IMG/VR virus record: IMGVR_UViG_3300038825_000219
Coordinates: 1-30,110 of that record
Length of the DNA stretch: 30,110 nt
Source of the DNA: a virus
Strand: one strand, 5' to 3'
Below, piece after piece: positions 4,538-22,995 of the stretch; position 1 is the first letter of the stretch; each line of letters begins with the position of its first letter. The position numbers and the translations under genes were made by a program. Below the pieces are notes generated by a model. It worked only from the letters and a program-made list of their open reading frames with translations. It did no database searches and was not told the DNA's origin.

Positions 4538-4799
4538 ATTGTTCCTCAATTATATCTACTAAAATGTCACCTATAAGATTCATAAAATCTTCGCCAAATT
4601 GTTCTTTTGGTACTGCATTATTATCTACGATATCAAATTCAAATTTAAATGGCATATTACCATCTTTTGTTTCTTCACCTAGTGAAACATTTCCATACTT
4701 ATAAATGACACCAGCAAACTTACCACCCTTGATACCAATACAAGTTTGGTCTTGTGTTTTACTTTCTACATATACATATGATTCTTCTATATTAGACAT
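4500..4799 (-). CDS. small acidic protein of unknown function
   Basis: Ninety-nine residues, acidic, with no recognisable family. The N-terminal half looks like beta strands (YVYVESKT, CIGIKGGKFAGVIYKYGNVSL). The C-terminal half looks helical (EDFMNLIGDILVDIIEEQYAE) and is followed by a charged, Asn-rich tail. The ATG at 4799 overlaps the end of the upstream oxygenase by 8 bp, and the stop lies inside the gp41 reading frame, so it is embedded in a tightly coupled operon between oxygenase and helicase genes. A small replication accessory factor is possible by position only. Confidence 0.65.
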   Translation of the reverse strand: MSNIEESYVYVESKTQDQTCIGIKGGKFAGVIYKYGNVSLGEETKDGNMPFKFEFDIVDNNAVPKEQFGEDFMNLIGDILVDIIEEQYAESDNRKDNSN

Positions 4800-5337
4800 A
4801 ATGTAAATAAGTTTGCATGATATACTTAGGTTCGTTTATTGGTTTTGTTCCAGCATGTAACCACGGCCACATAGGTGGAAACATTAACATACTACCTTTC
4901 TTACATTCAGCATATATTTTTAAATTTGGAAATGTAGTTTTGCCTTCTTTATTATCTGAAAGATAGATAAAGAAAACTAAAAATCTTGTAGATGTTGGTT
5001 TAGAGTTTACATCTACATGTGGTCTAAATTCATCATAGTCATTTGGCATATATCTTTTTATACGAATAGGTTCCCAAATATACTTACTTGGCATTTGTTG
5101 TGGTGTAACTTTTGTATCTGTCAAATAAGTTGTAAAACCATCTGAAAAAATCTTTTCAAATTTTTCTATTTCTGTTTTCCAAATATCAGGTGACTTCGCC
5201 ATATTTAGTTGTGTGAAAATCATACCACTAACATCAAATGCCTCATGTTGATTTTCAAACTGTTCAAACTTACTAATAACATTGTCGCAAGTTTCTTTAT
5301 CTAGTGTATCATCATATGTTTTAATTAAATTTATCAT
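4792..5337 (-). CDS. 2-oxoglutarate/Fe(II) dioxygenase, prolyl-4-hydroxylase-like
   Basis: A 181-residue enzyme of the double-stranded beta-helix 2OG oxygenase superfamily. The Fe(II) ligands are visible as HVD (His107, Asp109) and a distal His161 in WLHAG; Lys171 or a nearby residue may bind the 2-oxoglutarate carboxylate. The strand FLVFFIYLSD between them and the segment GSMLMFPP are typical of the P4H-like group. The ATG at 5337 overlaps the upstream oxygenase stop as ATGA; the in-frame TTG at 5352 is less likely. The substrate is unknown: candidates are a protein side chain or a modified nucleobase. Phage P4H-like enzymes of this type are common in marine T4-like phages. Confidence 0.85.
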   Translation of the reverse strand: MINLIKTYDDTLDKETCDNVISKFEQFENQHEAFDVSGMIFTQLNMAKSPDIWKTEIEKFEKIFSDGFTTYLTDTKVTPQQMPSKYIWEPIRIKRYMPNDYDEFRPHVDVNSKPTSTRFLVFFIYLSDNKEGKTTFPNLKIYAECKKGSMLMFPPMWPWLHAGTKPINEPKYIMQTYLHYV

Positions 5338-5861
5338 TTTTTTATTGTCCAATCTATTGCTATTCTTTTTTTGTTTGTAAATATGTCTTGTGCCTTATGT
5401 GGTACTCTTGGGTCAAATACTATAAAGTCACCTGGCTCTGGTGAGTGTAAAATACCACCGTGTTCAAATCCACCACCCCAAGATTTTTTCCAATCTGAAT
5501 TTAGTATTCCTAATACTTTAATGATTGGCGTGTCTTGTAGTTCATCTTTTTCATGGTCTGTATGTAAGTTATCTTCTCTATGTTCATCTTTCATAGAGAT
5601 ACCGCAAAACAAAAGGTCTAGGGGAACATTCACATTTTGTTTTTTTGCAGTTTCATGAATCATCATTAATAAACTCATAGACACGCCGCCCAAAAATTTA
5701 TCATGCATTGTGTTACCTTGTATAACATTTATCTTTGCATGTTTATCTTCAAATGGTTTACCCATTGGATAATTAAAGTTCCATTTATCAGATTTTGTAA
5801 TTTGATGTTTAAAGAAATCTAAAAATAAAGGTGAACAACAATTCTTAACTATCGTTGCCAT
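5334..5861 (-). CDS. 2-oxoglutarate/Fe(II) dioxygenase
   Basis: A 175-residue oxygenase, distinct from its downstream neighbour. The metal triad is HTD (His100, Asp102) plus His155 in RVPHKAQ. Arg166 in KKRIAIDW sits where these enzymes bind the 5-carboxylate of 2-oxoglutarate. The segment [18 protein letters not shown] is the classic beta-strand, turn and His arrangement. The start at 5861 overlaps the uvsX end by 17 bp, and the stop overlaps the next oxygenase as ATGA, so the two oxygenases are made together. The substrate cannot be read from the sequence. Confidence 0.85.
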
Positions 5862-6867
5862 ACTTAAACTCTTTTAATGCAACTTCTTCTAATTTTTCCA
5901 TAACCTCTTTTGTGAAATATTTTTCTGGGTCATTGTTAATTGTTTTGGCATATTGTTTACTACCATCTGGTAATTCAATACGAGTGGATACTTGTTTGAA
6001 GATTCCATATTGTACAGCCAAGTCAAGTAATCCATAATACTTATCAAGTCCTTTATCATAAGTTAATAATACATCAACCATTTTATTTTCCATAGTTAAT
6101 CTTGACTTATGGTTTTTACAATGAATGATATTACCTATGACTTCTGTACCATCTTTAAATTTTTTCTTTGAAAGATAGATGATACTTGAAGCAGCATATT
6201 TTAATCCACTACCACCACCCATTTCTTTTTGAGGGAACATTGAACCAATCACATCATATGTATGATTCGTTACAACCATTGGTACTTTTGCTTTTCCAAG
6301 TTTTAAAGTTAAAACTCTAAATGCAGCTTTGAGTATTTGTGCTCTTGACATATCTCTAGTTTCTTTTCCTGCCTCAGTATCTTCTACTTCTTTTGTAGTT
6401 GATAACATACCAAGTGAATCTAAACATATAAAGAGTGGTCTTCTTACATCTACATCTTGTTGCATATATCTATCTAATACTTTGAGTGCTTGATGTCTAA
6501 ACTCTTGTACAGTTGTTACTGGCATGATTACCATTCTGTTTGCATCTATACCTCTATCAACAACCATCTGTTTTGTGATTGCACTTTCTGATTCAAAGTA
6601 CACAACACCAGAGTTTGGATTTTGGTCTAGAAAGTTTTTAACCATCCCCATAAGAAAGAAAGTTTTTCCTGTTGCACTTTCTCCTGCCAGGGCAGTAATT
6701 TTGTTTTGTGGAAGTCCACCATAAAGTGAACCAGAGATGAGAGCATTAAATATATGAGAACCTGTATCTATAAAGTTCTCTACATCTCCAGCCTCTACGC
6801 CATCTGAAACTATTCCAGCATATTCATTACCTGTTTCTTTGATAACATCTTTTAAAAAGTCATTCAT
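5845..6867 (-). CDS. uvsX: UvsX, RecA-like recombinase
   Basis: This is the strand-exchange protein of T4-type recombination-dependent replication; it forms filaments on single-stranded DNA. It is 340 residues long (T4 UvsX is 391, so somewhat short). Walker A is GESATGKT (62-69), Walker B lies in [11 protein letters not shown], and a glycine-rich loop ([14 protein letters not shown]) matches the DNA-binding L2 region of RecA proteins. The ATG at 6867 is preceded by AGGGGAAAATA. The gene lies 9 bp downstream of the CmoA-like gene. The order uvsX then 41 matches T4. Confidence 0.95.
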
Positions 6868-7600: not shown

Positions 7601-7634
7601 GTGCCAGTATATCTGGTTCAACAAGTTTTGTCAA
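7601..7634 (-). repeat. 34-bp exact direct repeat, copy 1 (promoter)
   Basis: These 34 bases are identical to 13276-13309 and in the same orientation. The identical block covers the whole promoter plus five bases downstream of the -10. Its edges are sharp: flanking bases differ at both ends. Confidence 0.9.
7606..7634 (-). promoter_or_regulatory. sigma70-type promoter for cmoA-uvsX-41 operon
   Basis: On the minus strand TTGACA (7634-7629) and TATACT (7611-7606) are separated by 17 bp, a near-consensus host-type early promoter. It overlaps the last codons of the upstream methyltransferase gene and lies about 25 bp ahead of the CmoA-like start. Its sequence is identical over 34 bp to the promoter ahead of gp43. 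Confidence 0.85.
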
Positions 7635-8760
7635 CACTTTTATTGTATGGTTCTATCACATTCTTATAGACAGCTTCAGCAATGGCCTTCATCATTAATG
7701 ATGGTACCATTCTTCCACATCTCTCTATCTTTTGTGACATAGAACCAGTTACTTTAAAATCATCTGGTAAAGCCATTATACGCTTTATCTCATTAATTGT
7801 TAATCTTCTTTTTTCTATAAAATGACATACATCTGCATTTGTTGTAATTGTGGGTGCTGGATGGTGTCTAGACATTTTCTTAACATTGAAATGCCATCCT
7901 TTTGGATGAAAGTCATTTCCACCTAATACTTTGTCTGGGTCATCTGGCATCAGAGATGCCGTATCTTTATAGTGTGCAGAATTTAACCAAGTGTCTGTAC
8001 ACCATTTAACTTCTTCTTTATCTAATTCTAAATCCTCTAGTGCCTCTCCTGCTGTTACTACTTCTTTATTCTCTTGTGGAAAGATACTAGCAATGTTCAT
8101 AAATGTTAATCCTATGGCCTCTGTGACATCCTCACGGACTGCTATGAAGATAACTCGCCTTCTAGACTGTGGTACTCCAAAATGTGATGCATTCAAAATC
8201 TTATATGATACATCATAACCAATTTTTTCAAATGTATTTACAATCTCATTTAATTTTAGCTTGGCTTCTCCCGCCAATAAGCCTGCAACATTTTCGCCTA
8301 TGATTACTTTAGGTTTAATTTCTTCTGCAACTCTAAGATATTCAAAGAATAAGTCTTCTATGTTTTCTACTACCTTATTGTCTGAATACTTTTTAGTTTT
8401 ACCCCAACCATCAGAATGTTTTGAACCAGACTTTCCTAGTGTACCACACATTGAAAAAGCAGAACACGGTGGGGAACCATCTAATATATCTAGTTCACCT
8501 TTTTGTATTCCAGCAGTTTCTAAAAAGTCTTTACCTGTAAGTTCTTTTATATCATCAGGCATGATTATTGTATCTGGGTAATTTTCTTTGTAAGTAATTC
8601 TTGCTTGTTCAACAAACTCATTTACACAAAGTATATTTCCACCAGCAAGTCTGTAACCTGTAGATGAACCACCACCACCTGCAAATGTAGATATTACGGT
8701 AAACTTATTTTGTGCCGATGCTTCTTTTACATCTTTTAAATTATACTTTTGATATTTCAT
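7618..8760 (-). CDS. cytosine-C5 DNA methyltransferase, second copy, motif X Arg variant
   Basis: A 380-residue C5-cytosine DNA methyltransferase. Motif I is FAGGGGSSTGY (26-36). Motif IV is DGSPPCSAFS (94-103) with catalytic Cys99, motif VI is ENV (156-158), and motif VIII is QSRRR (198-202). A short target-recognition region leads into HPAPTITT (300-307). Motif X reads ERCGRMVP (346-353) where most family members have GN(A/S)VP; the usual Asn is Arg350. That Asn lies near the SAM methyl and carboxylate site, and basic replacements are known to permit carboxy-SAM use in one bacterial enzyme. The start lies 20 bp inside the upstream paralogue with no clear ribosome site, suggesting coupled translation. 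About half the residues match the neighbour, with divergence in the recognition region. Confidence 0.9.
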   Translation of the reverse strand: MKYQKYNLKDVKEASAQNKFTVISTFAGGGGSSTGYRLAGGNILCVNEFVEQARITYKENYPDTIIMPDDIKELTGKDFLETAGIQKGELDILDGSPPCSAFSMCGTLGKSGSKHSDGWGKTKKYSDNKVVENIEDLFFEYLRVAEEIKPKVIIGENVAGLLAGEAKLKLNEIVNTFEKIGYDVSYKILNASHFGVPQSRRRVIFIAVREDVTEAIGLTFMNIASIFPQENKEVVTAGEALEDLELDKEEVKWCTDTWLNSAHYKDTASLMPDDPDKVLGGNDFHPKGWHFNVKKMSRHHPAPTITTNADVCHFIEKRRLTINEIKRIMALPDDFKVTGSMSQKIERCGRMVPSLMMKAIAEAVYKNVIEPYNKSVDKTC

Positions 8761-9853
8761 TATAAGGTTTCAATACTTTTTCATAAATTGATTCTGCAAT
8801 TGCTTTCATCATAAGTGGTGGTACCATTCTACCACATCTTTCTGACTGTTGATTAAAACTACCTGTTAGTTTAAAGTCATCAGGTAATGACATCATTCTT
8901 TTTGTTTCTTTAACTGTAAATGTTCTTGGTTCATGCCAATGCATCGCTCCACCTGTTGCTGTAATTGTAGGAGCAGGTTTATGTCTAGATGTTTTTTTCA
9001 TATTAAAGTGATGACCTTTAGGATGATAATCACAACCTGTTTCAACCTTGTCTGGGTCATCTGGCATCTTTAACCAAGTTTCATAGTGAGAAGTTTTTTT
9101 AAATTTTTCTATTAGTGTGTCTGCTTCTTTTCTATCTACTTCTATATCACTTAAACAATCTTCTAATGTAACCACTTCTTTACTTTCATCTGGGAATAAA
9201 CTATTAATATTCATAAATGTTAATCCTACTGCCTCTGTAACATCCTCGCGAACAGCGATAAAGATAGTTCTTTGTCTAGTTTGTGGAACACCATAGTGAA
9301 CAGAATTTAAAACTTTGTATGATACATCATATCCTATTTCTTCAAATGTATTTACAATTTTAAAAAGATAATTTTTTGCTTCTCCAACAGTTAGTCCTTT
9401 AACATTTTCAGCAATAATTACTTTTGGTTTTAAATCTTTTGCTATTCTTAAAAACTCAAAAAATAAATCCTCTATGTTTTCTACCTTTTTACCATCAGAA
9501 TAATTTTTAGTTTGACCCCAACCTTTAGAGTGTCCACCTTGTACCATTGCACCAGATACTGAGAATGCAGAACATGGTGGGGAACCATCAAAGATATCTA
9601 TGTCGCCATACTTGTTAAAATCTTCTGCAGTAAGTTTTTTTATATCATCTGGTAATACAGGTGTGTTAGGATAGTTTTCCTTATATGTATTTATTGCTTG
9701 TTCAACAAATTCATTTACACATAATATTTTACCACCAGCCAAACGATAACCTGTGGAACTACCACCGCCACCAGCGAAAGTTGATACTACTGTAAACTTC
9801 TCTTGTTTAGAAGCCTCAACAACATCTTTTAAATTGTAAGGTTTGTATTTCAT
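8741..9853 (-). CDS. cytosine-C5 DNA methyltransferase, first copy, motif X Arg variant
   Basis: A 370-residue paralogue of the next gene, beginning almost identically (MKYKPYNLKDV). Motif I is FAGGGGSSTGY (26-36), motif IV is DGSPPCSAFS (89-98) with catalytic Cys94, ENV is at 149-151, QTRQR at 191-195 and PAPTITAT at 293-300. Motif X is ERCGRMVPPL (338-347) with Arg342 in place of the usual Asn. The region between the catalytic loop and motif VI, and the segment after motif VIII, differ most from the paralogue, so different target sites are likely. The start overlaps the PP-loop gene stop as ATGA. No restriction endonuclease partner is adjacent, which fits self-protection or hypermodification rather than classical restriction-modification. 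Confidence 0.9.
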   Translation of the reverse strand: MKYKPYNLKDVVEASKQEKFTVVSTFAGGGGSSTGYRLAGGKILCVNEFVEQAINTYKENYPNTPVLPDDIKKLTAEDFNKYGDIDIFDGSPPCSAFSVSGAMVQGGHSKGWGQTKNYSDGKKVENIEDLFFEFLRIAKDLKPKVIIAENVKGLTVGEAKNYLFKIVNTFEEIGYDVSYKVLNSVHYGVPQTRQRTIFIAVREDVTEAVGLTFMNINSLFPDESKEVVTLEDCLSDIEVDRKEADTLIEKFKKTSHYETWLKMPDDPDKVETGCDYHPKGHHFNMKKTSRHKPAPTITATGGAMHWHEPRTFTVKETKRMMSLPDDFKLTGSFNQQSERCGRMVPPLMMKAIAESIYEKVLKPYNEISKV

Positions 9854-10773
9854 ATAAATTCATCTAATGTAGATGTATTATTTAATTCGTACCAATCTCT
9901 GTATACATCTAACATTCTAGTTCTGTTCTTAAAGTTAATCTCTCTATTATTTAGCAGAGTGCCAAACAGTTTATTTACACCACTTCCTATTTGTAAATTT
10001 AAATGATTTTCTACTTTGTCTATTTCGTTAAATTCGTAAAATGCATTTCTGACATGATGTTTTTGAAATGGTTTGTTTAACTGTTCATGGTTGTGTCTAT
10101 AAAAAAATTGTTTTACTGCAGTAGTTAAATATGGTGTTATAAGTTTTTTATTATTCATCTCTGCAACTTTTTTGTGCCATATGTAACCAGCTTGATTTTC
10201 TTCTTGAAAATAATTATCTCTAAACTCATTAAAATTATCACCTGTATAATGTATCATGGCTTTTTTACTTAATCCATAATAACCATCAGCAGCCCAACCA
10301 GATAAAACATAGTTTTCTTTTATTTGTGGATAGATATGTAAGAAAGGAAATGTACATTCAAATTGTGTTTTCTTTTTACATCCTAATCTAACTAAGTTAT
10401 GAAAATCTTCTACTAATTTATCTGTAGGTATAGTTACACCAATAAATCTCCAATTTCTCATTTGTGCAATATCTTTTGCTTTATTATAATCATAAGATTC
10501 ATGATTATCTAATCTAAAACTATATGCTGTTATTTTCTTTCCAAGTCTTTCTGCTGCAAATGCAATAGAGATAGAATCAACACCACCAGATAATAATACT
10601 GCAACTTCTTTTTCTGGTACAGAATCATTTACTTCATTTGTTAATATTTTATCTATCATTAAATGGTCAAACATGTTTTCATTTGGTTTAGCATTAAATA
10701 TTGCATCCCAATTATCAGAATATGTATCTTGTGGTACTTTCATTGGTCTTCTCTTATCTCCTTTTCCTGCCAT
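9850..10773 (-). CDS. asparagine-synthetase-like PP-loop amidotransferase/ligase
   Basis: A 307-residue protein with the ATP-pyrophosphatase signature SGGVDS (62-67) and a second nucleotide loop LSGWAADGYYG (157-167) like the LSGxGADExxxGY motif of asparagine synthetase B. These enzymes activate a carboxylate as the acyl-adenylate and transfer nitrogen to it. The glutaminase domain is absent (the protein begins MAGKGDKRRP with no Cys2), so it would need free ammonia or another amine. The first 27 residues (GKGDKRRP through NWDAIF) resemble a short motif I recall from small stand-alone phage proteins, fused here. It is coupled to gp43 upstream by TAATG and to the first methyltransferase downstream by ATGA. 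I infer it acts on a modified base; free asparagine synthesis is the alternative. Confidence 0.8.
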   Translation of the reverse strand: MAGKGDKRRPMKVPQDTYSDNWDAIFNAKPNENMFDHLMIDKILTNEVNDSVPEKEVAVLLSGGVDSISIAFAAERLGKKITAYSFRLDNHESYDYNKAKDIAQMRNWRFIGVTIPTDKLVEDFHNLVRLGCKKKTQFECTFPFLHIYPQIKENYVLSGWAADGYYGLSKKAMIHYTGDNFNEFRDNYFQEENQAGYIWHKKVAEMNNKKLITPYLTTAVKQFFYRHNHEQLNKPFQKHHVRNAFYEFNEIDKVENHLNLQIGSGVNKLFGTLLNNREINFKNRTRMLDVYRDWYELNNTSTLDEFI

Positions 10774-13268
10774 TAGAAAAACTCCTCTAGTGTTCCTTGT
10801 GTACCATAACTACCATCAATCTGCCATTGTATAATACCTGTAATAAATTTTAATGGTTCTATAAATGACTTTTCAAATTGCATATCATAATCTACTATAC
10901 TATGTAAGTTTAGTTCTTCTGGTAACTTAGTCATAAATGATATTGATGTTGATTGATATGTGTTTGGTACTTTCATATGTAAAAATTTAATCTTATCACC
11001 CTCTTGTATATAAGGATACTTACCTTGTAATTTTTTTTCTTTTAAAAGATGATTATATAATATTGCACCTTTACAATGTATTGGTGCTCCTTTCTTAAAT
11101 AGATTGTGTGATTCAGTCCATTTGTTTAATCCATTTACAGAGCGTGGATACGCAACTAGTTCTGGGTTTAGTGTCATAAATTCTTTTCTAAAATCTTGTA
11201 TAAAACTATTTAGCACTTTTGAATCTTCATTCATTATAATTTTTAATGCTTGTTTAATTTTTTCACGACAAGGTGCAGGGGTTGATGACTTCACAGCTTC
11301 AACACCCATAATTTTTAATTTGGGTTCTTTATAACGAACACCTTCAACATCATGTGTATTTAAAATATATCTTTTCTTTGCAACCCAAATTCCTTTGTCT
11401 GCAATCACTTCTCTTTTCATCTGCATCTTTTGTTCATATGCATTTACATAGTCAGCGAGTTCTTGATAAGACTTATCAATAAAGGGTTCGATTTTATCTG
11501 TAGCCACTTTGTCCAAGAAGTCAACGATTTTGGATTTGTCGGTTTCTCCTTTGAATACTTTGCCAACAAGTTTGTCAAAACAAATATACACCGAGTCCGT
11601 ATCTGATGCAATAATGTAATCTTCTCCATTGGTTTCAAGTATCTTATTAAGATACCCATTAAGACAATGTTCAATATGCCTAATAGCAAATTGACCACTG
11701 GTAGTAATTGCTTCAGCAACCAAAATATTATAATACCTAAACCAGTTATTACCAATAGCACCATATGCACTATTAAGAGAAATCTTTTTGGCCATTTGGA
11801 TATTATTAAATTTTGAAATTGTTTTTTTAAGTTTTGGGTCTTTAGTTCTTTCATAATCTTTCTTTGCCTCCAACATTAACTGTTTGAATTTTACTCTGTC
11901 ATCATACATCTTTTGCATGAGTTCAGGTAGAAAACCTTTTTGAGTTGTTTTAAACAAAGCACCATTTGGTGTCATAGTCGCATCTTTTAATATTGATGTA
12001 TCTACACTTTTATTTAGCATTTTCTCAACAGACATGTTTTTAACTTTTTCATTTGCAACTAATGTTTCTGGTGAAATATTATATTGCATAATCAGATGTG
12101 GGTATAGTGAATTTAAATCAAAAGACATCACCCATTTATGTAAACCCACTTGTGGGTCTTTTACATATGCACCTTCAAACTTTTCAGATTTAGTTTGATT
12201 TACTTTTTGTGGAATTACTATATTCTTTTTTCTAAGTTCATTATAGATTAGTATATCCCAATATTTAACTGAACCAAGTACATCCATATAATTAACCTTG
12301 GCATCATAAGCCATAGTCAAACATAGTTCAATCAATCTCATTTTATCTTCTAGTCTATCAACGATTTCTACATCTTGTATATTGTAGTCAATAAACGATT
12401 GGAAGTCCTTTAAGTACCATTCTCGGAATGTTTCGTATGGATTGTCATCTTTACTCTCACCGAGTTCAATATGGGCAATATGGTCAAGTCTGTAACTCTC
12501 ACGATTGGTATATGTAAACTTCCTATACAAATCATAATAATCTAAATGTGATACTCCTTGAATATCATAGACTTGATGTTTTCTACCCATTTGATAAACT
12601 TCTCTACTTGATACATTACCCCAAGGTGAAAGTTTATTCACTTCTGTTTCATCATATAAATTTTTAATACGATTACATACATAAGGTATATCAAAAAATT
12701 CTGTATTCCAACCTGTAATCACATCTGGTTGATTCTTTTGCCAGAAAGATAAAAACTCTTGTATCAACATTTTTTCATTATCACATTTTACATAAGTTAC
12801 ATCTTCTCTTGTGTTTTTGTATTCACCTGTACCCCAAACTAATATTTGTTTGTTTTGATGATTCTTAATTGTAATTGATAGTAGTGGTTCAATTGCATCT
12901 TCTGGGTTTGGAAATCCATTTTCACACGCCACTTCTATGTCAATCGTTACAATAAGAATTTTATCAACATCCCACTTTACAAAACTAGGATATTCATCTG
13001 CGATATAATTATATTGAAATGTAGTATTACCGAAGATTAAATGTGGTTGGTCTTCATAAGACTTTAACCATTCTTTTGCTTCTTTGATTGTATTATGTTT
13101 TACAGGTGTAACATATTGACCATCTAAAGTTTTATGTTTAGTTTCTTTAATTACTTTACAGAATAGCGTAGGGGAATATTTAACCTTTCGATTAACTCTT
13201 TCTCCATTTACATATTCTCTAACGAGCAGGGTATTACCCCATGGTGTTACATTTGTATAAAAGTTCAT
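10773..13268 (-). CDS. 43: DNA polymerase gp43 (family B)
   Basis: The replicative polymerase with proofreading, 831 residues (T4 gp43 is 898). Exonuclease motifs are DIEVACENG (110-118, Asp110/Glu112), NTEFFD (188-193) and YNIQD (295-299). Polymerase motif A is DLNSLYP (384-390), motif B is KKISLNSAYG (494-503) and motif C is DTDS (556-559). All catalytic residues are present. A near-consensus promoter lies immediately upstream, so it can be expressed separately from the clamp and loader genes. The C-terminus (LEEFF) resembles a clamp-binding peptide. In T4, RegA represses translation of several genes of this cluster; I cannot identify a RegA site here with confidence. Confidence 0.97.
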   Translation of the reverse strand: MNFYTNVTPWGNTLLVREYVNGERVNRKVKYSPTLFCKVIKETKHKTLDGQYVTPVKHNTIKEAKEWLKSYEDQPHLIFGNTTFQYNYIADEYPSFVKWDVDKILIVTIDIEVACENGFPNPEDAIEPLLSITIKNHQNKQILVWGTGEYKNTREDVTYVKCDNEKMLIQEFLSFWQKNQPDVITGWNTEFFDIPYVCNRIKNLYDETEVNKLSPWGNVSSREVYQMGRKHQVYDIQGVSHLDYYDLYRKFTYTNRESYRLDHIAHIELGESKDDNPYETFREWYLKDFQSFIDYNIQDVEIVDRLEDKMRLIELCLTMAYDAKVNYMDVLGSVKYWDILIYNELRKKNIVIPQKVNQTKSEKFEGAYVKDPQVGLHKWVMSFDLNSLYPHLIMQYNISPETLVANEKVKNMSVEKMLNKSVDTSILKDATMTPNGALFKTTQKGFLPELMQKMYDDRVKFKQLMLEAKKDYERTKDPKLKKTISKFNNIQMAKKISLNSAYGAIGNNWFRYYNILVAEAITTSGQFAIRHIEHCLNGYLNKILETNGEDYIIASDTDSVYICFDKLVGKVFKGETDKSKIVDFLDKVATDKIEPFIDKSYQELADYVNAYEQKMQMKREVIADKGIWVAKKRYILNTHDVEGVRYKEPKLKIMGVEAVKSSTPAPCREKIKQALKIIMNEDSKVLNSFIQDFRKEFMTLNPELVAYPRSVNGLNKWTESHNLFKKGAPIHCKGAILYNHLLKEKKLQGKYPYIQEGDKIKFLHMKVPNTYQSTSISFMTKLPEELNLHSIVDYDMQFEKSFIEPLKFITGIIQWQIDGSYGTQGTLEEFF

Positions 13269-13315: not shown

Positions 13316-13525
13316 TTATGTTAATAAATCGGGTTGATTGCCGTAGTGTTTATTCAATGTTGCCAACTTATCTTCGGCATCTGCAAGTTTAACCATCTCT
13401 GAATCCACTGCTGCAACTAGGTCTGGGTGTTCACCTATACCTGCAGGGTTTTTCATGTAGACATTAATGTTAGCCTGTGCAGCTGCAATTTCTGCTTCAT
13501 ATTTTTTTCGTAGTGCATTTATCAT
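13316..13525 (-). CDS. small helical phage protein
   Basis: Sixty-nine residues, almost certainly a helical hairpin: an N-terminal helix (LRKKYEAEIAAAQANINVY, residues 5-23), a turn containing NPAGIGEHPD (26-35), then a second helix rich in Ala, Asp and Lys. The start overlaps the upstream RimK-like stop as ATGA. I do not know its function. Its position just ahead of gp43 and its coiled-coil look suggest a small binding protein, perhaps for a replisome component. Confidence 0.75.
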   Translation of the reverse strand: MINALRKKYEAEIAAAQANINVYMKNPAGIGEHPDLVAAVDSEMVKLADAEDKLATLNKHYGNQPDLLT

Positions 13526-14937
13526 TCGGGGTTCCTCATGTCTGTATCATTTTTATCACCTCGTTCTATGTAACTTGATAGAACGAATTTTCTGTCGGGA
13601 TTTACTGCAACTTTTAATCTAGTGAGTAATTCCCTATTAATTAAAAATGTACTTTTAGAATCTCTTGTAGTTAATCCTATTGGAACATCTTTATATAATT
13701 TGTTATTAAATTTTATATCTACTAATACGATTGGTCTTTTATCTATCTGGTCTACATGAACAGGTCTAGATACACCAACAATATTGTTAGTAAATTTTTT
13801 ACCATCTCTTTCCCATTTTGCAATCTTACCTTTTATTTCAAGTTTATCTACATGAAACATAGACGCTTTAGTTCCATTACCTGTATCAAACTTAGCACGG
13901 TATGGGCCTAGACCTACTATCTCTAATCTCTCTACATATCCAGCAACTTGTGTTGAACCCACAAATCTACTTTTAACTTTTGAAATATGAGTTACTACTT
14001 TTTCAATTAGTCTTTCATTTGTTGTTAATTTACCCTCGCCATTTCCAAAGTTAGAGCCGATACCAGGTGAACCATTACATTCTAAAATATATGTTTTACC
14101 ATTTACGATTGTGTGGTCTACTCCAACCATATATGCACCTGTAGAACGATATGCACTTAGTATTGATTCTTTTTCATCATCAGAAAGTTTGTAAGGAAAT
14201 GTTTCTGCTCCTCTGTGTCTGTTAGAACGAAAATCTTCTTTTGGTTTTACTCTTTTTGTAGAGGCAATAATTACACCATCTACTACAATAGTTCTAACAT
14301 CAAACGGCATTTCTAAAAACTCTTGTATTAAAAGTTCAGCACCAAACTTCCATAGTGATTGTACATTTGATATTAAACTTTTATAATCATTTGCAATAGA
14401 TACACCAATACCTTGTGTGCCTGTAATTGTTTTTATAATAACAGGAAATTTACCACCGATTCTTTTATGTGCATCTGTAACTGAATCTTCATTATTAATT
14501 AATGATGTTCTAGGTGTCTGTATTCCATTTTGATGAAAGGTAATATAGGATGTCATTTTATTATCACAAGTTAACATACCATCTCGGTTGTTAATCATAA
14601 ATGCACCTGCCTTTTCAAAAGTAGAAAGTAATGCAAGACCTACTTCATCCTCTAATACTCCAGCACGAACAAACACGACTGTTTTGTTTATATCAAAGTC
14701 TAGTCTTTCTCCCTCTACATTTGATATTGTTAAAGTACCTTTTTCTAAATCGTTATCTGATACCCATGCTTTTCTTGTGTTAACAATATGACATGGAATT
14801 TTATTTTTATCTGAATATTTTTTAAGTTGGTTTGCAACCACTTCTTCTTTTGTTGAGGATACTTTGGTAAGCACAGCAATTTGTATATCACCATCATTCA
14901 CATTTTCTTCTGTGATGAACGATTGAAAGTTCTTCAT
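13522..14937 (-). CDS. RimK-type ATP-grasp ligase fused to retropepsin-like (DUF785/RimB) domain
   Basis: I start this at the ATG at 14937, 7 bp after the iscU stop; an upstream in-frame start at 15018 would overlap iscU by 74 bp. The 471 residues hold an N-terminal pre-ATP-grasp domain, an ATP-grasp domain (about 128-325; IIKTITGTQGIGVS at 167-180, metal-binding ECNGSPG at 286-292), then a C-terminal domain with AKFDTGNGTKAS (348-359). DTG (351-353) is the retropepsin motif of the RimK-associated DUF785 family. RimK adds glutamates to the ribosomal S6 C-terminus, and its partner is thought to remove or process such additions. The fusion suggests one protein that adds and trims amino acids on a protein, or on a small carboxylate or modified base. 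It lies between iscU and a 69-residue gene inside the replisome operon. Confidence 0.85.
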   Translation of the reverse strand: MKNFQSFITEENVNDGDIQIAVLTKVSSTKEEVVANQLKKYSDKNKIPCHIVNTRKAWVSDNDLEKGTLTISNVEGERLDFDINKTVVFVRAGVLEDEVGLALLSTFEKAGAFMINNRDGMLTCDNKMTSYITFHQNGIQTPRTSLINNEDSVTDAHKRIGGKFPVIIKTITGTQGIGVSIANDYKSLISNVQSLWKFGAELLIQEFLEMPFDVRTIVVDGVIIASTKRVKPKEDFRSNRHRGAETFPYKLSDDEKESILSAYRSTGAYMVGVDHTIVNGKTYILECNGSPGIGSNFGNGEGKLTTNERLIEKVVTHISKVKSRFVGSTQVAGYVERLEIVGLGPYRAKFDTGNGTKASMFHVDKLEIKGKIAKWERDGKKFTNNIVGVSRPVHVDQIDKRPIVLVDIKFNNKLYKDVPIGLTTRDSKSTFLINRELLTRLKVAVNPDRKFVLSSYIERGDKNDTDMRNPE

Positions 14938-14944
14938 AATATAT

Positions 14945-15352
14945 TTACTCTTTTGGTTGCCATTTACCCATTGATTCTTGTTTTCCTTTATAGTCTGCAA
15001 GTGCAGCTTTAATAGCATCTTCTGCCAAAACCGAACAATGAATTTTTACTGGTGGTAGTGCGAGTTCTTCTGCAATGTCACTATTTTTAATTTGTTCTAC
15101 TTTATCTAAACTCTGTCCTTTAACCCATTCGGTTAATAGACTTGATGAAGCAATTGCTGAACCACATCCATAGGTTTTAAATTTAGCATCTGTTATGATA
15201 CCATCATCACCTACTTTGATTTGAAGTTTCATAACATCGCCACAAGCAGGTGCTCCGACCATGCCTGTACCAACTGATGAATCATCCTTATCAAGTGTTC
15301 CCACATTTCTAGGATTTTCATAATGGTCTAAAACTTTATCTGAATATGCCAC
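14945..15352 (-). CDS. iscU: IscU-type Fe-S cluster scaffold protein
   Basis: A 135-residue, apparently complete IscU. All ligand residues are present: Cys37 in GAPACGD, Asp39, Cys63 in YGCGSAIASSS, His105 and Cys106 in KIHCSVLAEDAI. The LPPVK motif (99-103), recognised by the chaperone HscA in bacteria, is intact, so the phage protein could plug into the host Isc machinery. No IscS, HscA/B or ferredoxin gene is nearby. It begins one base inside the regA stop (TAATG), in the middle of the replication operon. Likely roles are supporting Fe-S proteins during infection, or diverting clusters or iron. Confidence 0.95.
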   Translation of the reverse strand: MAYSDKVLDHYENPRNVGTLDKDDSSVGTGMVGAPACGDVMKLQIKVGDDGIITDAKFKTYGCGSAIASSSLLTEWVKGQSLDKVEQIKNSDIAEELALPPVKIHCSVLAEDAIKAALADYKGKQESMGKWQPKE

Positions 15353-15762: not shown

Positions 15763-16147
15763 GTTTACCGCCTTTATCTAAACTATTCATGATAGTTTTT
15801 ATTTGTTCATCATTTAGTATACTAAGAGCTGATTTTGCTTTTTCATTACTATATCCATAATACTCTTTTACATATTCTAAATATTTTTCTTTCTTCGCTT
15901 TCAACCAAGGTGTGTATCTTTGCCTTGTTCTTAGAGTATTTAGTAAAAAGTCAAACTGTAATTTCTTATCTGTCTGATGATTCATGTTCATTTCATTAAC
16001 TAGAAAGATAGTATCTTGAAATGGAGCAAGACATTTATTTACAATATAGGGTGGATATTTCTTTTCCCACATCTCATCTTCACCATCCATAAGTTTTTCT
16101 TTGGAAGTATTGATGGCTTTTAAATATTCTTTTAATTCGTAACTCAT
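15752..16147 (-). CDS. 62: clamp loader small subunit gp62
   Basis: A 131-residue protein at the exact T4 position of gp62, between gp44 and regA. Sequence similarity to T4 gp62 (187 residues) is weak by eye, and the protein is shorter. The begin (ELKEYLKAINTSKEKLM) and the central WEKKYPPYIVNKCLAPFQDT segment, however, match marine T4-like gp62 proteins as I know them. It joins four gp44 subunits to load the gp45 clamp. The start overlaps the upstream oxygenase stop as ATGA. Confidence 0.85.
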   Translation of the reverse strand: MSYELKEYLKAINTSKEKLMDGEDEMWEKKYPPYIVNKCLAPFQDTIFLVNEMNMNHQTDKKLQFDFLLNTLRTRQRYTPWLKAKKEKYLEYVKEYYGYSNEKAKSALSILNDEQIKTIMNSLDKGGKHGK

Positions 16148-16866
16148 TTTTCTAACCTATGCCATGGTATGGTATCTGCATGGTTTATTTCATTATATAA
16201 ATTAACACTATCACCAGCAACTTGTATTCCACTATCTTTTTTAAATCCTTTGTATGACATATTATATGCAATACTTCTTCTTTCACCAGAGCCTTGAAAT
16301 GGATATACTTGATGATACAAACTATTAGGAAATAATATACACATGCCTGGTTTTGGTCTTGCTACAAAAGAACCTGTTGTAAAAATATCATTGTTTGAAT
16401 TAAAAGTAAATTCAATTTGACCATCTTTTTCTTTTGGTTTGTTAGGTATGTTTCTAGGTTTCATAGCAGGAATCTTTAAATATAACACAGCACTTATTTG
16501 ACAATGTGAATGATTGTGTTGTGGATTATATTCATTTTCATATTGAGATACAGACCAAATAGATTGCATTTGAGTTTTTACATCCATAGCGTTATATAAA
16601 TCTTGTTGATGAGAATTTAAATAAGCTTGTTCTATGTAACTTCTAGATAGTGCATGAAAAACATCCATGACTTTTTTTTCTTCCAACATAGAATGTGGTA
16701 TTTCACTTTCAGTTTCAATCACACCAGCAAGTCTAGAGCCCATGTCTTTTTTATCTTTAACTACATCAACTATTTGATTTAATTTTTGAATAAATCCCTC
16801 TGGTAATTGTGCCAACATAACTAAAGGCCCAAAAGGTTTTACCACTTGTACATTTTTTATTTCCAT
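16144..16866 (-). CDS. 2OG-Fe(II) oxygenase, TIGR02466-like, inserted between 44 and 62
   Basis: The ATG at 16866, 10 bp inside the gp44 end, is preferred over an in-frame TTG at 16896. The 240-residue product belongs with the two oxygenases further upstream. It has YNPQHNHSH (113-121; His117 and His119, an HxH instead of the usual HxD), SAVLYLKIP (125-133), and ILFPNSLYHQVYPF (177-190, His185) followed by GERRSIAYN (Arg196/197). The family is a 2OG-Fe(II) oxygenase group common in marine T4-like phages; the substrate is unknown. Its insertion within the clamp-loader gene pair is notable. Confidence 0.85.
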   Translation of the reverse strand: MEIKNVQVVKPFGPLVMLAQLPEGFIQKLNQIVDVVKDKKDMGSRLAGVIETESEIPHSMLEEKKVMDVFHALSRSYIEQAYLNSHQQDLYNAMDVKTQMQSIWSVSQYENEYNPQHNHSHCQISAVLYLKIPAMKPRNIPNKPKEKDGQIEFTFNSNNDIFTTGSFVARPKPGMCILFPNSLYHQVYPFQGSGERRSIAYNMSYKGFKKDSGIQVAGDSVNLYNEINHADTIPWHRLEK

Positions 16867-17792
16867 TTCACATCTACCATAATTTCTGTTAGACAAGCCA
16901 GTAAGTTTATTTCTTGGTCTGCCACAAACGCTGACTGATACTGGTACTTAGATAAGATAAGAACTGCATGAGGTATTGTACCAGCAGTAGCATACTTATA
17001 AAGATTATCGTAAATCCTGCGATAAATACGGACAGGGTCATTGTCCAAATTATGTACAATCCATTTTCGTACATTAGTGAATTCCTGAGCCTTGAGTGCG
17101 GTAATAAGTTCATTTATATTTACCTCTGATATGTTTACAAGAATACCAGCATCTATCTGACCTGATGTAGAGTATCTTTGTAATTCGTTTATTGTTCTAC
17201 GCCAATCTGGGAAATATTTAGTTAATACTTCCATTACAACTCTTGGTTCATATTTTATATTCTCTGATTCAAGAATATTCTTAACACGACCAAAAAAGTC
17301 TTTTGCAAGTTTTGGTTTATCATCTTTTGCAATAATAAAATCAATCACACTACATCTTGAATGTAGAGGGTCAATTAATCTATTCTTATAATTACAAGTA
17401 AGAATGAATCCACAATTCTTGTGAAATTCTTCCATGAATCCACGAAGTGCTGGTTGTGTAGATTGGGGATTTAAATAATCTGCCTCATCAAGTATGACAT
17501 ACTTACGACCACCTTCTAGTGATACTGTTGAAGCAAAGTTTTTAATTTTATTTCTGAGTACATCAATACCAGATTCTTCTGAACCATTTATGAGTAATGA
17601 TGTTGCACCAATCTCATCAAGCATTGCTTTGGCAACAGTAGTCTTACCGACACCAGGCCCACCTGATAAAATTAAGTTTGGTATGTGTTTGTCTTCTACA
17701 AATTCCTTAAAAGTCTTTTTTAAGTTCTCTGGTAAAATACAATCATTGATAGTGCTTGGGCGATGTTTCTCAACCCATAAAAAAGTTTCCAT
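16857..17792 (-). CDS. 44: clamp loader large subunit gp44 (AAA+)
   Basis: The ATPase subunit that opens and places the gp45 clamp on primed DNA, 311 residues (T4 gp44 is 319). Walker A is GGPGVGKT (44-51), Walker B ends in DEAD (102-105) and the arginine-finger motif SRC is at 145-147. The N-terminus (WVEKHRPSTI) is the standard clamp-loader start. It is separated from gp45 by 18 bp. Confidence 0.96.
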   Translation of the reverse strand: METFLWVEKHRPSTINDCILPENLKKTFKEFVEDKHIPNLILSGGPGVGKTTVAKAMLDEIGATSLLINGSEESGIDVLRNKIKNFASTVSLEGGRKYVILDEADYLNPQSTQPALRGFMEEFHKNCGFILTCNYKNRLIDPLHSRCSVIDFIIAKDDKPKLAKDFFGRVKNILESENIKYEPRVVMEVLTKYFPDWRRTINELQRYSTSGQIDAGILVNISEVNINELITALKAQEFTNVRKWIVHNLDNDPVRIYRRIYDNLYKYATAGTIPHAVLILSKYQYQSAFVADQEINLLACLTEIMVDVKWK

Positions 17793-18496: not shown

Positions 18497-19279
18497 TTAA
18501 GATTTAATTTCTTTATTTAATGTTGGTGATTTAAATTGTGCGACAGTTTCTTTACTATCTCTAATATTAAAGTTAGCAGACATTGTTCTTCGTTCACCTT
18601 CTCCGAAAAATGGCATAACACAATGCTGTAACCAATTAGGAAATATCATCATAAATCCTTTTTTGGGTTTTATATATTCTTGTGCATCTAACTTTAATCT
18701 GTAAACATCTGCGATGGTATTGGTCGTTGTTATCAAACCTGTATGACCATCAATGTCACCTGTTGCATTATGTAATTGAGGGAATGATGGTTTTTCTTCA
18801 ATACACTTTGGTACTTTTAAATAAAGTATCATAGACATACCTGCAGGTGTTTGACATCCGTGTGCATGTAAAGGATTGTAATCTCCAGCATAACTATGTA
18901 CAGTCCATGCTTCAAAAGCCTCTGCAATACTATCACGATTATAACCAGTCTTATCATTTAGTAAACTAGTTGCACATCTATCTATAACAGTTTTAAAATC
19001 TTTTCCCATTTTATCATCTAATGGAAAAGTCCATTGTGCAGATTTTTTATCTTGATTAATCTGTCCAACTAACTGACCTTCGTGAGATACATTACTAGGT
19101 ATAATAACTTCATCAATGTGATTATTAATATCATCAATAAAGGCATCTGGGAATTGTACTGCCATTAGTTTATATGACGGTATAGTTTTTATCTGTGCGT
19201 GTGTATCAAAAGATTGATTTTCTTTTTTAGATTCTTCCTTTTTTACGCCTAAAGAATCTGATAAATCTTTTAAACTCAC
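18497..19279 (-). CDS. 2OG-Fe(II) oxygenase, TIGR02466-like, tandem copy 2
   Basis: Two hundred and sixty residues. The first 30 are charged and probably disordered. The catalytic core has AWTVHSYAGDYNPLHAHG (124-141; His138, His140), MILYLKVP (150-157), IFPNWLQHCVMPF (212-224; His219) and GERRTMSAN (228-236; Arg230). It clearly shares ancestry with the adjacent upstream gene, which it overlaps as ATGA, and more distantly with 16144-16866. The substrate is unknown. It stands 11 bp ahead of clamp gene 45, so it is co-expressed with the replisome. Confidence 0.87.
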   Translation of the reverse strand: MSLKDLSDSLGVKKEESKKENQSFDTHAQIKTIPSYKLMAVQFPDAFIDDINNHIDEVIIPSNVSHEGQLVGQINQDKKSAQWTFPLDDKMGKDFKTVIDRCATSLLNDKTGYNRDSIAEAFEAWTVHSYAGDYNPLHAHGCQTPAGMSMILYLKVPKCIEEKPSFPQLHNATGDIDGHTGLITTTNTIADVYRLKLDAQEYIKPKKGFMMIFPNWLQHCVMPFFGEGERRTMSANFNIRDSKETVAQFKSPTLNKEIKS

Positions 19280-20301
19280 GACTGTTCACCAGAGTGGTCT
19301 TTTCTATAATGGTCACCAGTTAGTTTTTCTTTTAAAGTAATATTAATGTTTGCTGAGAATGTTCTTCTCTCATCATCTTCTTTATTACTAAAGAAAGGCA
19401 TCACTCCATGTCTTAACCAACTAGGGAACATAATCAATGTACCAACTTCTGGTTTAATATATTCCTCTGTAATAGGTCTTAACATATTAACATCACGCAT
19501 ACCATTAGTACCCCAAGTTAAATATGTAAAACCATCTACTGCACCTGATGATTCATTTAACCCTTCAAAATTTTCTGATGGGTTTCCTAGTCTTGCAATA
19601 CATCTAGGAACTTGTAAATACATAATACATGATACACCCATTGGTGTTCTTGTGCCATGGTCATGTACAGGATTGTAATCACCACTATAACTATGTACTG
19701 TCCACATTGATTCCATAGAGGTATCACATTCTATTCCAACTGTTCTATTAACATATTCTTTTGCAAGTCTTTGTAGAACACCACTAAACATTTCACCAAC
19801 TTCATCACCTTCGTGTGGGAAAGTTAATTGTGCTGACCTTTCATTCTGTCTAATCTGTCCAACTAAACCTTTTGAATGGTCTACATTATTTGGAATAATA
19901 ACTTTTTCTATATGTTCATTTATTTCTGTTGTGACTTCTGCAGGAAATTGACATCTCATTAAATGAACTGCAGCTTTTGGTCGCATTGCAATTTGAATAC
20001 CACCAGGGTTTTCAGGTACTTCTTCACCTGTATCTATTTGTTGTTCTTCTGAAGCTTTGTTTTGAGCATTTATCATATCTGCTCTTTTCACTTGTTGTGT
20101 TTCTTCACTCATATTCTTTTCACCTTTGTTTTTTGCATCATGTAGTGCTTTGTTATAATCTTCGATAGTAAATGGTCTGTCACCCATTTCATTTGGTCTG
20201 ATGATTTCAGATTTACCTGTTTCACTATTGAATCTATCAATTCCGCCTACGCCAACATCAATATCTTCAACACTTAATTTTATATCTTCTTTATCACTCA
20301 T
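19276..20301 (-). CDS. 2OG-Fe(II) oxygenase, TIGR02466-like, tandem copy 1, long N-terminus
   Basis: A 341-residue protein, first gene of the replisome operon. About 105 N-terminal residues, acidic and Lys/Gln-rich and apparently disordered, precede the oxygenase core. The core has WTVHSYSGDYNPVHDHG (200-216; His213, His215), CIMYLQVP (225-232), MFPSWLRHGVMPFF (291-304; His298) and ERRTFSANI (311-319; Arg312). The core parallels the downstream copy segment by segment, indicating tandem duplication. A promoter with consensus hexamers lies 26-55 bp upstream of the ATG at 20301. Confidence 0.87.
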   Translation of the reverse strand: MSDKEDIKLSVEDIDVGVGGIDRFNSETGKSEIIRPNEMGDRPFTIEDYNKALHDAKNKGEKNMSEETQQVKRADMINAQNKASEEQQIDTGEEVPENPGGIQIAMRPKAAVHLMRCQFPAEVTTEINEHIEKVIIPNNVDHSKGLVGQIRQNERSAQLTFPHEGDEVGEMFSGVLQRLAKEYVNRTVGIECDTSMESMWTVHSYSGDYNPVHDHGTRTPMGVSCIMYLQVPRCIARLGNPSENFEGLNESSGAVDGFTYLTWGTNGMRDVNMLRPITEEYIKPEVGTLIMFPSWLRHGVMPFFSNKEDDERRTFSANINITLKEKLTGDHYRKDHSGEQS

Positions 20302-20921: not shown

Positions 20922-21479
20922 TTATGATACAAATTCATTTAATGTACCTATACCACCGTCAATATTTAAATCTTCCATAATAATTTGTTTTGGTAATAAA
21001 TTCCAACAATAATAACTACAACTAAAAGTAATCTTTTTATTGGGTCTACCATCTGGCTGGATAAATTGCATTCTTTTAGTAAACATTAATAATTGTAAAT
21101 CTTTATCTTTAAATAATTTTTTTGGTGCTGAATCATTTAACCAAGTATTAGTCATAATTAAAGCAAAGGGTTTATTAAAAGATAATGCTCTTTCAAAAAA
21201 TAATCTTTTTTTAGCAAAGGGTGGATTTGATATAAGAATATCCCAATGTTTAGGTTCATATGTAAAAAAATCTTGGTCATCCTCAATGTGAGAATACTCA
21301 ACAGGATTATTTTTAGATATTAGTTTTACAAATTCAGAATCTTCTTTATCAAAAGGACACCAAACTGTAATATCTTTTGGAATATATTTTAATATTGGTA
21401 TAACACCATAATCTGGTGTGTAACATTCATCATTAGAGGGAGCACCTACTGGCCCATATAACATAGTTTGGTCTTTCAT
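20922..21479 (-). CDS. adenine-methyltransferase-like protein with NPPF motif
   Basis: A 185-residue protein with ISNPPFAKK (83-91). NPPF is the catalytic motif IV of N6-adenine methyltransferases, and the preceding WDILISNPPF strand is typical. The usual glycine-rich motif I is replaced by VWCPFDKEDSEF (39-50), and the N-terminus has DECYTPDYG (17-25), seen in phage proteins of this type. Some relatives carry doubtful database names such as sugar-phosphate nucleotidyltransferase. It is coupled by ATGA to a 53-residue gene and follows a DUF262-HNH nuclease, so it might protect phage DNA. SAM binding with the altered motif I is uncertain. Confidence 0.7.
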   Translation of the reverse strand: MKDQTMLYGPVGAPSNDECYTPDYGVIPILKYIPKDITVWCPFDKEDSEFVKLISKNNPVEYSHIEDDQDFFTYEPKHWDILISNPPFAKKRLFFERALSFNKPFALIMTNTWLNDSAPKKLFKDKDLQLLMFTKRMQFIQPDGRPNKKITFSCSYYCWNLLPKQIIMEDLNIDGGIGTLNEFVS

Positions 21480-21645: not shown

Positions 21646-22995
21646 CTATTTATTTTCATATAACTTTTTATAATCATACAAATTCATAGTACCCATTGCA
21701 CGATTATGTTCTCTACGAACCATAACCATATTATCCATAGTAGATGGTCCACCATTGTGATAACTTATTATATGTGCAGCTTCAGCATCTGATAAAGATA
21801 AATCTCCACCATCTATGCCACACTTATAATTTTGTTCTGATAGTTTGGTTTCTCTTTCAGTTTTTGTATAAGACCTTTTTGTATCTTGAATACAAAGATG
21901 TTCTCTAACATTAAACTCTAGTAATAACCAAATTACAGTTTGTTTAATTTTCTTAGTATTATCTGGCGCACCTAGATAACTAGTAAATGCTTCTGATATC
22001 ATTCTAGCTCTATTGTCTATACCTGTATCATTAATTAATTTACCATACTTCTTATCATTATTAGAAAGAAGTAAAAACGCATTCCTATAAGACTTCATAA
22101 ATTCTGTATAATCATTAATCTTAAATACTTTATATTTGTCAAGTAAATAAAATCTTAAAAATGATAACATCTTAAAGTCTTGTTGAGTTAATCCACCAGC
22201 AAAATCTTTCTTGGCATTAGCACATTGTAACAAGAAGTCACAATGTTTTTTTAACTCATCTTCTAAATCATTAATCTGTTTTTCATCAAATGAATTTTCG
22301 TACATTGATTTGATATCTCTATCAGCAGATGAACCTAAAAATTTATCTTTTGTAAAACGATAAACAAATCTTGCAATCAATTCTTCTGTTTTTAATCTAT
22401 TGTTATCAAACTCTAGATAATTAAAATTTCGTTTACCTGTCGTTGATGGTTTAAGAGTAAATAATTGATGTGGTATATTATTAACCTGTGGTACTATTCT
22501 TACAGATTCTCTAATTAAATTAGCTAGTGGTATGTCACCAAATGAATTGCACATTTCTTGATGATTAACATCTGTGGTCTCATTTAAGTTTCTAAAAATT
22601 TCACCTCTTTTAGAAACAGATAAATTACCATACACACAAAAAGATAATGGATAATCCATAAATTCTTTTTGAACTTCATCATCTAATTGATTAAAATATT
22701 TTCCGTCAACAGAGAATGCACCAAGTACAAAATCTCTTATGTATCTTTTTCTATGTCCACCATCAACAGAATCTTTTGCATAGCGAAGACTTTTTTCATT
22801 CCCCGCAATAGTTACTTGACCTATAGAATCACCTTTTAACATTGTTCTAATGATACCTTCTCTCTTATACGGAGATTCAGTAACAGGTAATCTTTGACCT
22901 ACAGGTTGACAGTCAATTTTTAAATTAGATAATTCATCATCTGGTGATAAGAATTCTCTAACAGTTTTAGTTTTTACTTCAAAGTTAATTTTCAT
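21646..22995 (-). CDS. DUF262 plus HNH nuclease, GmrSD-like
   Basis: A 449-residue protein with an N-terminal DUF262 domain: DSVDGGHRKRYIRDF (75-89) matches the VDGQQR motif, and GEIFRNLNETTDV matches the later ExF..LN motif. A helical middle is followed by a C-terminal HNH domain (386-449) with Cys392, AHII (407-410), HNGGPSTMDNMV and REHNR (428-432; His430, Asn431). DUF262-HNH fusions include GmrSD, a type IV restriction enzyme that cuts modified phage DNA. A phage copy could attack host or competing phage DNA, with its own DNA spared by modification. AAAGGAGGC precedes the ATG, and a strong terminator lies just upstream, so it probably has a separate transcript start that I could not locate. 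Confidence 0.85.
   Translation of the reverse strand: MKINFEVKTKTVREFLSPDDELSNLKIDCQPVGQRLPVTESPYKREGIIRTMLKGDSIGQVTIAGNEKSLRYAKDSVDGGHRKRYIRDFVLGAFSVDGKYFNQLDDEVQKEFMDYPLSFCVYGNLSVSKRGEIFRNLNETTDVNHQEMCNSFGDIPLANLIRESVRIVPQVNNIPHQLFTLKPSTTGKRNFNYLEFDNNRLKTEELIARFVYRFTKDKFLGSSADRDIKSMYENSFDEKQINDLEDELKKHCDFLLQCANAKKDFAGGLTQQDFKMLSFLRFYLLDKYKVFKINDYTEFMKSYRNAFLLLSNNDKKYGKLINDTGIDNRARMISEAFTSYLGAPDNTKKIKQTVIWLLLEFNVREHLCIQDTKRSYTKTERETKLSEQNYKCGIDGGDLSLSDAEAAHIISYHNGGPSTMDNMVMVRREHNRAMGTMNLYDYKKLYENK

Follow-up and report, generated by a model that had tools for sequence, protein, structure and literature searches.

A conserved tandem pair of predicted CmoX-type cytosine C5-carboxymethyltransferases in a marine T4-like phage lineage

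Introduction

Two adjacent open reading frames on a 30,110-nucleotide stretch of viral DNA (IMG/VR record IMGVR_UViG_3300038825_000219; hereafter the window) encode cytosine-5 methyltransferases that both carry an arginine in motif X, at a position where an asparagine is the expected residue. This raises the question of which cofactor the two enzymes use, and why the phage keeps two of them. The first-pass annotation proposed that a basic residue at the position of M.HhaI Asn304 and M.MpeI N374 pairs with the carboxylate of carboxy-SAM (Cx-SAM), and exactly this has been established for the CmoX enzyme of Synechococcus phage S-B43 (SpCmoX), characterised by Yang et al. (Nat Commun, 7 December 2025; PMC12783734). 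In the S-B43 pathway, CmoA produces carboxy-SAM, CmoX carboxymethylates cytosine C5 in GC motifs and CmoY adds glycine (PMC12783734). Wild-type SpCmoX accepts Cx-SAM as its sole cofactor, the R350N variant uses neither cofactor, and Arg350, which replaces the Asn304 of HhaI, contacts the carboxymethyl group and carboxylate of Cx-SAM in the 1.9 Å crystal structure 8YF3 (PMC12783734).

Since the motif X arginine is described in that study, we do not present it as new biology. The same paper catalogues 5,615 phage sequences that combine SPPC with an Arg at the Arg350 position, a selection made on the arginine itself, and its main text, taken apart from the supplement, includes no non-Arg control and does not speak of CmoX genes that are duplicated or arranged in tandem. 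It also draws the parallel with M.MpeI N374K, which it cites as a case where a basic residue replacing the motif X Asn permits the use of Cx-SAM; M.MpeI is a bacterial methyltransferase specific for CG into which the Lys was engineered, whereas the window enzymes carry a natural Arg.

Results

Two intact C5-methyltransferases with an arginine in motif X

The upstream gene of the pair, cmoX-a (P0002; 8741-9853, minus strand), encodes 370 aa with SPPC, ERCGRMVP including Arg342, and the recognition loop TATGGAMHW. The downstream gene, cmoX-b (P0001; 7618-8760, minus strand), encodes 380 aa with SPPC (Cys99), ERCGRMVP including Arg350, and the recognition loop TTNADVCHF. Both products are intact, full-length cytosine-5 methyltransferases (PF00145, E 8e-57 for P0001 and 4e-61 for P0002) that are 66% identical overall, and both retain SPPC, ENV, QxRxR and GRMVP. 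Motif X reads KIERCGRMVPSL in ORF 7618-8760 and QSERCGRMVPPL in ORF 8741-9853, and direct reading of the sequence located the codons of Arg350 (7711-7713) and Arg342 (8828-8830), both AGA on the minus strand. When compared with HMMER, R342 of P0002 fell on Asn304 of M.HhaI in an ungapped alignment (QQSERCGRMVP against QAYKQFGNSVV). The presence of ERCGRMVP in both proteins, with Arg at the Asn304 position, was confirmed.

The best PDB match of both proteins was the carboxymethyltransferase structure 8YF3 (E 3e-136 for P0001 and 3e-146 for P0002), with no gap around its GRMVP motif, and this structure was also the top fold match of an AlphaFold model of P0001 (pLDDT 89.5; E 1.9e-41, TM 0.83/0.95). 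SpCmoX is 57% identical to P0001 and about 60% identical to P0002 (61% between P0002 and the close relative RN05-S); it shares the SPPC cysteine and the Arg at the HhaI Asn304 position, numbered 350 in SpCmoX and P0001 alike. In 8YF3, a structure of this homologue, the Arg lies at the carboxylate of the cofactor and not away from it. Reading the arginine of the window enzymes as a Cx-SAM residue is thus supported, as already published for the homologue.

The first-pass annotation had also taken the preservation of the Arg in both paralogues as a sign of selection. In homology searches that were blind to the residue, motif X carried an Arg in 166 of 166 relatives of P0001 and P0002, and in 80 of 80 relatives of the enzyme of Streptomyces phage TurkishDelight. 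The codons used were AGA and AGG in cmoX-b genes (class b), AGA only in cmoX-a genes (class a), and AGA, AGG, CGC, CGT, CGA and CGG in other Arg clades. Since the residue is fixed while its synonymous codons vary, the motif X arginine is not there by chance. The accompanying statement that Asn is the family norm held only in part: ordinary phage enzymes do have Asn (78 of 78 in a Streptococcus-phage set), while some other phage clades are fixed for Met or for Leu. The first-pass annotation also cautioned that eukaryotic DNMT3 enzymes read GRSW here and use SAM; if the SVP residues are aligned, DNMT3A would have a Trp, not an Arg, on the HhaI Asn304 position.

A complete predicted carboxymethylation cassette between polB and uvsX

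The whole predicted pathway lies in one run of minus-strand genes, in the order polB, cmoY, cmoX-a, cmoX-b, cmoA and uvsX. Calculated from the coordinates, successive genes first overlap by 1, 4 and 20 nt and are then separated by 36 and 9 nt, and such overlapping or closely spaced junctions suggest that the run from polB to uvsX forms a single transcription unit. The upstream neighbour is a T4-type family B DNA polymerase gene (polB; 10773-13268, minus strand; phrog_262, PF00136) and the downstream one encodes the RecA-like recombinase UvsX (5845-6867, minus strand; phrog_97, E 4e-93); the genes around the cassette form a T4-type replication module. Pelagibacter phage HTVC008M has the same polB-uvsX neighbourhood with the cassette absent. 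The cassette of S-B43 likewise has cmoA and cmoY as neighbours of cmoX, but a single cmoX is shown there, in the order cmoX-cmoY-cmoA and adjoining a primase-helicase gene, whereas in the window two non-identical cmoX genes follow one another in the polB-uvsX interval and have other recognition loops.

The cmoA gene (P0003; 6877-7581, minus strand; phrog_4752), which lies 36 nt downstream of cmoX-b, encodes a predicted carboxy-SAM synthase that shares 58% identity with SpCmoA, the active enzyme of S-B43. Its PDB matches were E. coli CmoA (4gek, E 9e-27) and YecO, with no others, and its top NCBIfam model was TIGR00740 (CmoA; E 1e-36), with a score of 127 bits that is below the 193-bit cut-off, as other phage CmoA proteins also score below the NCBIfam CmoA cut-offs. 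Over its full length, P0003 is thus a homologue of CmoA and not of other class I methyltransferases, and carboxy-SAM synthesis is its predicted activity.

The cmoY homologue (P0004; 9850-10773, minus strand), adjacent to the cmoX pair, encodes a 307-aa relative of asparagine synthetase with the PP-loop motif SGGVDS, predicted to be an ATP-dependent, AMP-forming amide ligase. It is 44-45% identical to SpCmoY in alignments (44% by tblastn to S-B43/S-B05), and K135, T136, E139 and C140, among other residues, are invariant in the CmoY alignment. A model of P0004 gave fold matches to beta-lactam and asparagine synthetases, and a domain scan returned PF00733 (E 2e-11) and a weaker QueC match only, with no glutaminase (GATase) domain. 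TurkishDelight also has an asparagine-synthetase-type ligase within its cmoX-cmoA cluster, but that protein carries an N-terminal glutamine amidotransferase domain (GATase_6/7; ammonia donor), which the window ligase lacks. When loci of the window lineage extend as far as polB, cmoY separates polB from cmoX-a in 35 of them and is missing there in six; in one of these six, whose CmoX proteins are 92-97% identical to those of the window (L015), no cmoY match was found anywhere in the 123.7-kb record. The presence of cmoY is thus optional in the lineage, and bare 5-carboxymethylcytosine (5cxmC) is the predicted end product in L015.

Several other genes of the window may be of interest. A RimK-family ATP-grasp ligase gene (13522-15018, minus strand) lies just upstream of polB; we considered whether the pathway might use it as an additional ligase and set it aside, as it is found near polB in relatives with or without cmoA, including the cmoA-less phage Melnitz. 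Five genes of the 2OG-Fe(II) oxygenase type lie within the 30 kb (4792-5861, 16144-16896 and 18497-20301, minus strand). A short protein encoded at 20922-21479 (minus strand) matches the phrog_799 DNA methyltransferase family, with weak similarity to Eco57I/EcoRI methylases, and the gene beside it (21646-22995, minus strand) encodes a product with an endonuclease VII-like C-terminus.

cmoA accompanies Arg-type enzymes across phages

The association between the motif X residue and cmoA was examined in IMG/VR loci gathered with six protein queries (P0001, P0002 and the C5-methyltransferases of Melnitz, TurkishDelight, phi18:3 and Streptococcus phage 11865), in which the residue at the Arg350 column was scored and cmoA was sought by profile. 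On the fetched stretches, cmoA was present on 163 of 189 Arg contigs versus none of 236 Leu, Met or Asn contigs; of the 26 Arg contigs on which cmoA was not found, most stop short of its expected position. When at least 2 kb of flank was available on both sides, cmoA was found near 42 of 43 Arg-type genes versus 0 of 134 Asn-, Met- or Leu-type genes. An equal frequency of the Arg motif in phages that lack cmoA, which the first-pass annotation had named as an outcome that would refute its proposal, was thus not seen: Arg at motif X is nearly restricted to phages with cmoA. These counts come from a few clades, and the state of the seeds was partly known when they were chosen, so that loci are not independent samples and Fisher p-values would be no formal test; the co-occurrence shows strong consistency, short of independent sampling. 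Complete genomes give the same picture: cmoA is present in those of Y3, AD1, fHe-Yen9-02 and Mcat8 and absent from those of Melnitz, phi18:3, FPSV-S18 and LoVEphage.

Two apparent exceptions dissolved on inspection. Moraxella phage Mcat8 seemed to have an Arg enzyme without cmoA when tblastn with P0003 missed the gene, but the profile found a divergent CmoA directly adjoining; jumbo phages of Erwinia, Dickeya and Yersinia have no cmoA within 3 kb, but carry it elsewhere in the genome. The 43-kb record of one Arg locus (L298, with relatives L296 and L297) does lack cmoA. Conversely, the Staphylococcus phages PhiSepi-HH3 (L134, 8672-9679) and vB-SscS-F1 (L136, 9461-10468) have cmoA next to a C5-methyltransferase with GGVIN as its motif X, Gly standing in for Arg, and vB-SscS-F1 also carries a cmoY homologue at 8643-9458. 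Since these two phages pair cmoA with a Gly-type enzyme, Arg is not the sole companion of cmoA, and such enzymes would escape the published Arg350 filter.

The survey also brought up other types of enzymes. Bacteroidetes-phage enzymes (L301-L380, phi18:3, FPSV-S18 and LoVEphage) invariably have Met where motif X would have its Asn (GMSVPP), with neither cmoA nor TET nearby. The Arg-type enzymes of the Erwinia, Yersinia and Dickeya jumbo phages (L126, L128 and L129) are interrupted at the catalytic SPPC by an insert spanning about 365 alignment columns, which starts with CFT, ends with VHNC and is intein-like, in the active site. Finally, the 78-kb genome of Alcaligenes phage Afa-NA1 (L135; PV550095), deposited as complete, has a cmoA homologue at 7932-8684 and two D12-class adenine methyltransferases, with no PF00145 C5-methyltransferase in the genome, making this phage a candidate for a modification that depends on Cx-SAM but targets another base than cytosine; PMC12783734 reports no adenine candidates.

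A Leu clade nested among Arg enzymes is associated with TET/JBP oxygenases

The enzyme of the Methylophilales phage Melnitz (EXVC040M) and its relatives resembles the window enzymes in being about 43% identical to them, nested in the same clade and adjoining polB; it differs in having Leu at the Arg position, in a complete genome that lacks cmoA and with a TET/JBP oxygenase alongside. In our tree, this Leu clade was nested within the clade of Arg enzymes with cmoA (SH-aLRT 97 for the joint group and 91 for the nearer group). Leu occupied the Arg position in 80 of 80 loci of the clade, made up of Melnitz and marine relatives; these loci lack cmoA, and a TET/JBP oxygenase (PF12851) was close by in 65 of 81 genes, while it was found in no Arg locus. 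The simplest reading, drawn from tree and gene neighbourhoods, would be that the Leu lineage reverted to SAM, and that it makes 5mC which is then oxidised; the Melnitz enzyme is accordingly predicted to be a SAM-dependent methyltransferase supplying 5mC to TET. The same arrangement, a Leu enzyme followed by a TET/JBP oxygenase without cmoA, is seen in L005 (4140-6324) and in the Melnitz-type loci L141-L220, where a pathway from 5mC to oxidised 5mC, in a sister clade of CmoX, is likely.

The tandem pair is conserved and its recognition regions differ

Classes a and b occurred together in 43 loci, always with class a upstream (some contigs were fetched twice, so that the number of contigs is slightly lower). 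The 18 loci with a single class lie at contig ends or nearly so: six b-only loci have at most 124 nt on the partner side and twelve a-only loci at most 1.5 kb. Between P0001 and P0002, identity falls from 73% in the catalytic region to 56% in the recognition domain and 47% in loop II, and the recognition domains of P0001 orthologues are 83-99% identical. Across loci, the class b recognition loop TTNADVCHF is nearly invariant, and the class a loop TATGGAMHW has the variants TAHAGAMHW and TAKFPPMHW. A second tandem pair (L108, L109, L115, L118 and L120-L122) consists of a sister of class a and a divergent CmoX near the Leu clade, whose recognition domains are 28-30% identical to each other. The doubling of CmoX therefore arose on two or more occasions. 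This recurrence speaks for distinct target sequences rather than plain dosage, and the pair may thus carboxymethylate two sequence contexts.

Discussion

Our data make it very probable that both genes encode CmoX-type C5-carboxymethyltransferases, with the motif X Arg as the residue that selects Cx-SAM; from homology, neighbouring genes and anatomy, we infer that Cx-SAM is the cofactor of the two window proteins. Phage CmoA would convert SAM and host prephenate into Cx-SAM. The SPPC cysteine of CmoX-a and CmoX-b would then attack C6 of a flipped cytosine, and the carboxymethyl group, its carboxylate held by Arg342 or Arg350, would be moved onto C5 to give 5-carboxymethylcytosine. The asparagine-synthetase-like CmoY would adenylate the carboxylate and then couple an amine; since CmoY has no glutaminase domain, this amine is probably an amino acid such as glycine. 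Each enzymatic step has been demonstrated in the homologue from S-B43 (PMC12783734), and the window proteins would follow the same steps, with dual contexts and a glycine-like amine as presumed features. The resulting hypermodified DNA would withstand host restriction.

A conventional explanation would be that these are ordinary SAM-dependent C5-methyltransferases that tolerate the Arg and make 5mC, while CmoA would act in tRNA modification. In their fold and in motifs I to X the two proteins do match ordinary C5-methyltransferases, and cmoA-less clades show that residues other than Asn (Met, Leu) occur at this position. We nevertheless consider this explanation very improbable, as SpCmoX, at 57-61% identity, rejects SAM, as cmoA sits between cmoX and uvsX in a single gene run and accompanies Arg-type rather than Asn-, Met- or Leu-type genes, and as no CmoB homologue was found among the window proteins scanned. 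It is also unlikely, if less so, that only one CmoX is catalytically competent, and that the other binds DNA or regulates as its partner, or is a duplicate in decay. Some C5-methyltransferase systems do act as two polypeptides, and the recognition loop of CmoX-b (TTNADV) departs from that of the active homologue (TASGGL); against this, both proteins keep SPPC, ENV, QxRxR and GRMVP, the pair is kept in 43 loci with single copies confined to contig ends or their vicinity, and the class b loop is nearly invariant, as expected for a selected function.

If both enzymes are CmoX-type carboxymethyltransferases, they could still share one specificity (GC) as a dosage duplication, a possibility that rivals only the proposal of dual specificity. 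Extra dosage would help to modify a whole genome, and recognition domains that remain 56% identical would fit with it. Still, the second recognition loop has diverged well beyond the catalytic region (47% vs 73% identity), the loop typical of each class is conserved from locus to locus, and the separately formed second pair has recognition domains with 28-30% identity, so that we regard simple dosage as rather unlikely. Our tentative proposal, to which we give a little under an even chance, is instead a dual system in which paralogous CmoX enzymes with different targets were paired at least twice, and in which the presence or absence of CmoY among near-identical relatives would switch the product between an amide and bare 5cxmC. 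What we add to published work is the conserved, non-identical tandem pair and the natural Arg/Leu contrast, the rest being of low novelty.

Carboxymethylcytosine, discovered in 2025, is a handle for hanging amides on phage DNA. Our analysis extends the CmoX system to a marine T4-like lineage that is related to Pelagibacter phage HTVC008M in the cassette region. It also brings to light a natural set of variants: Arg with CmoA versus Leu with TET within one enzyme clade, two CmoX enzymes with different recognition loops per genome, and close relatives with or without CmoY. With such variants, the choice of cofactor, the choice of target and the end product become open to testing by simple swaps.
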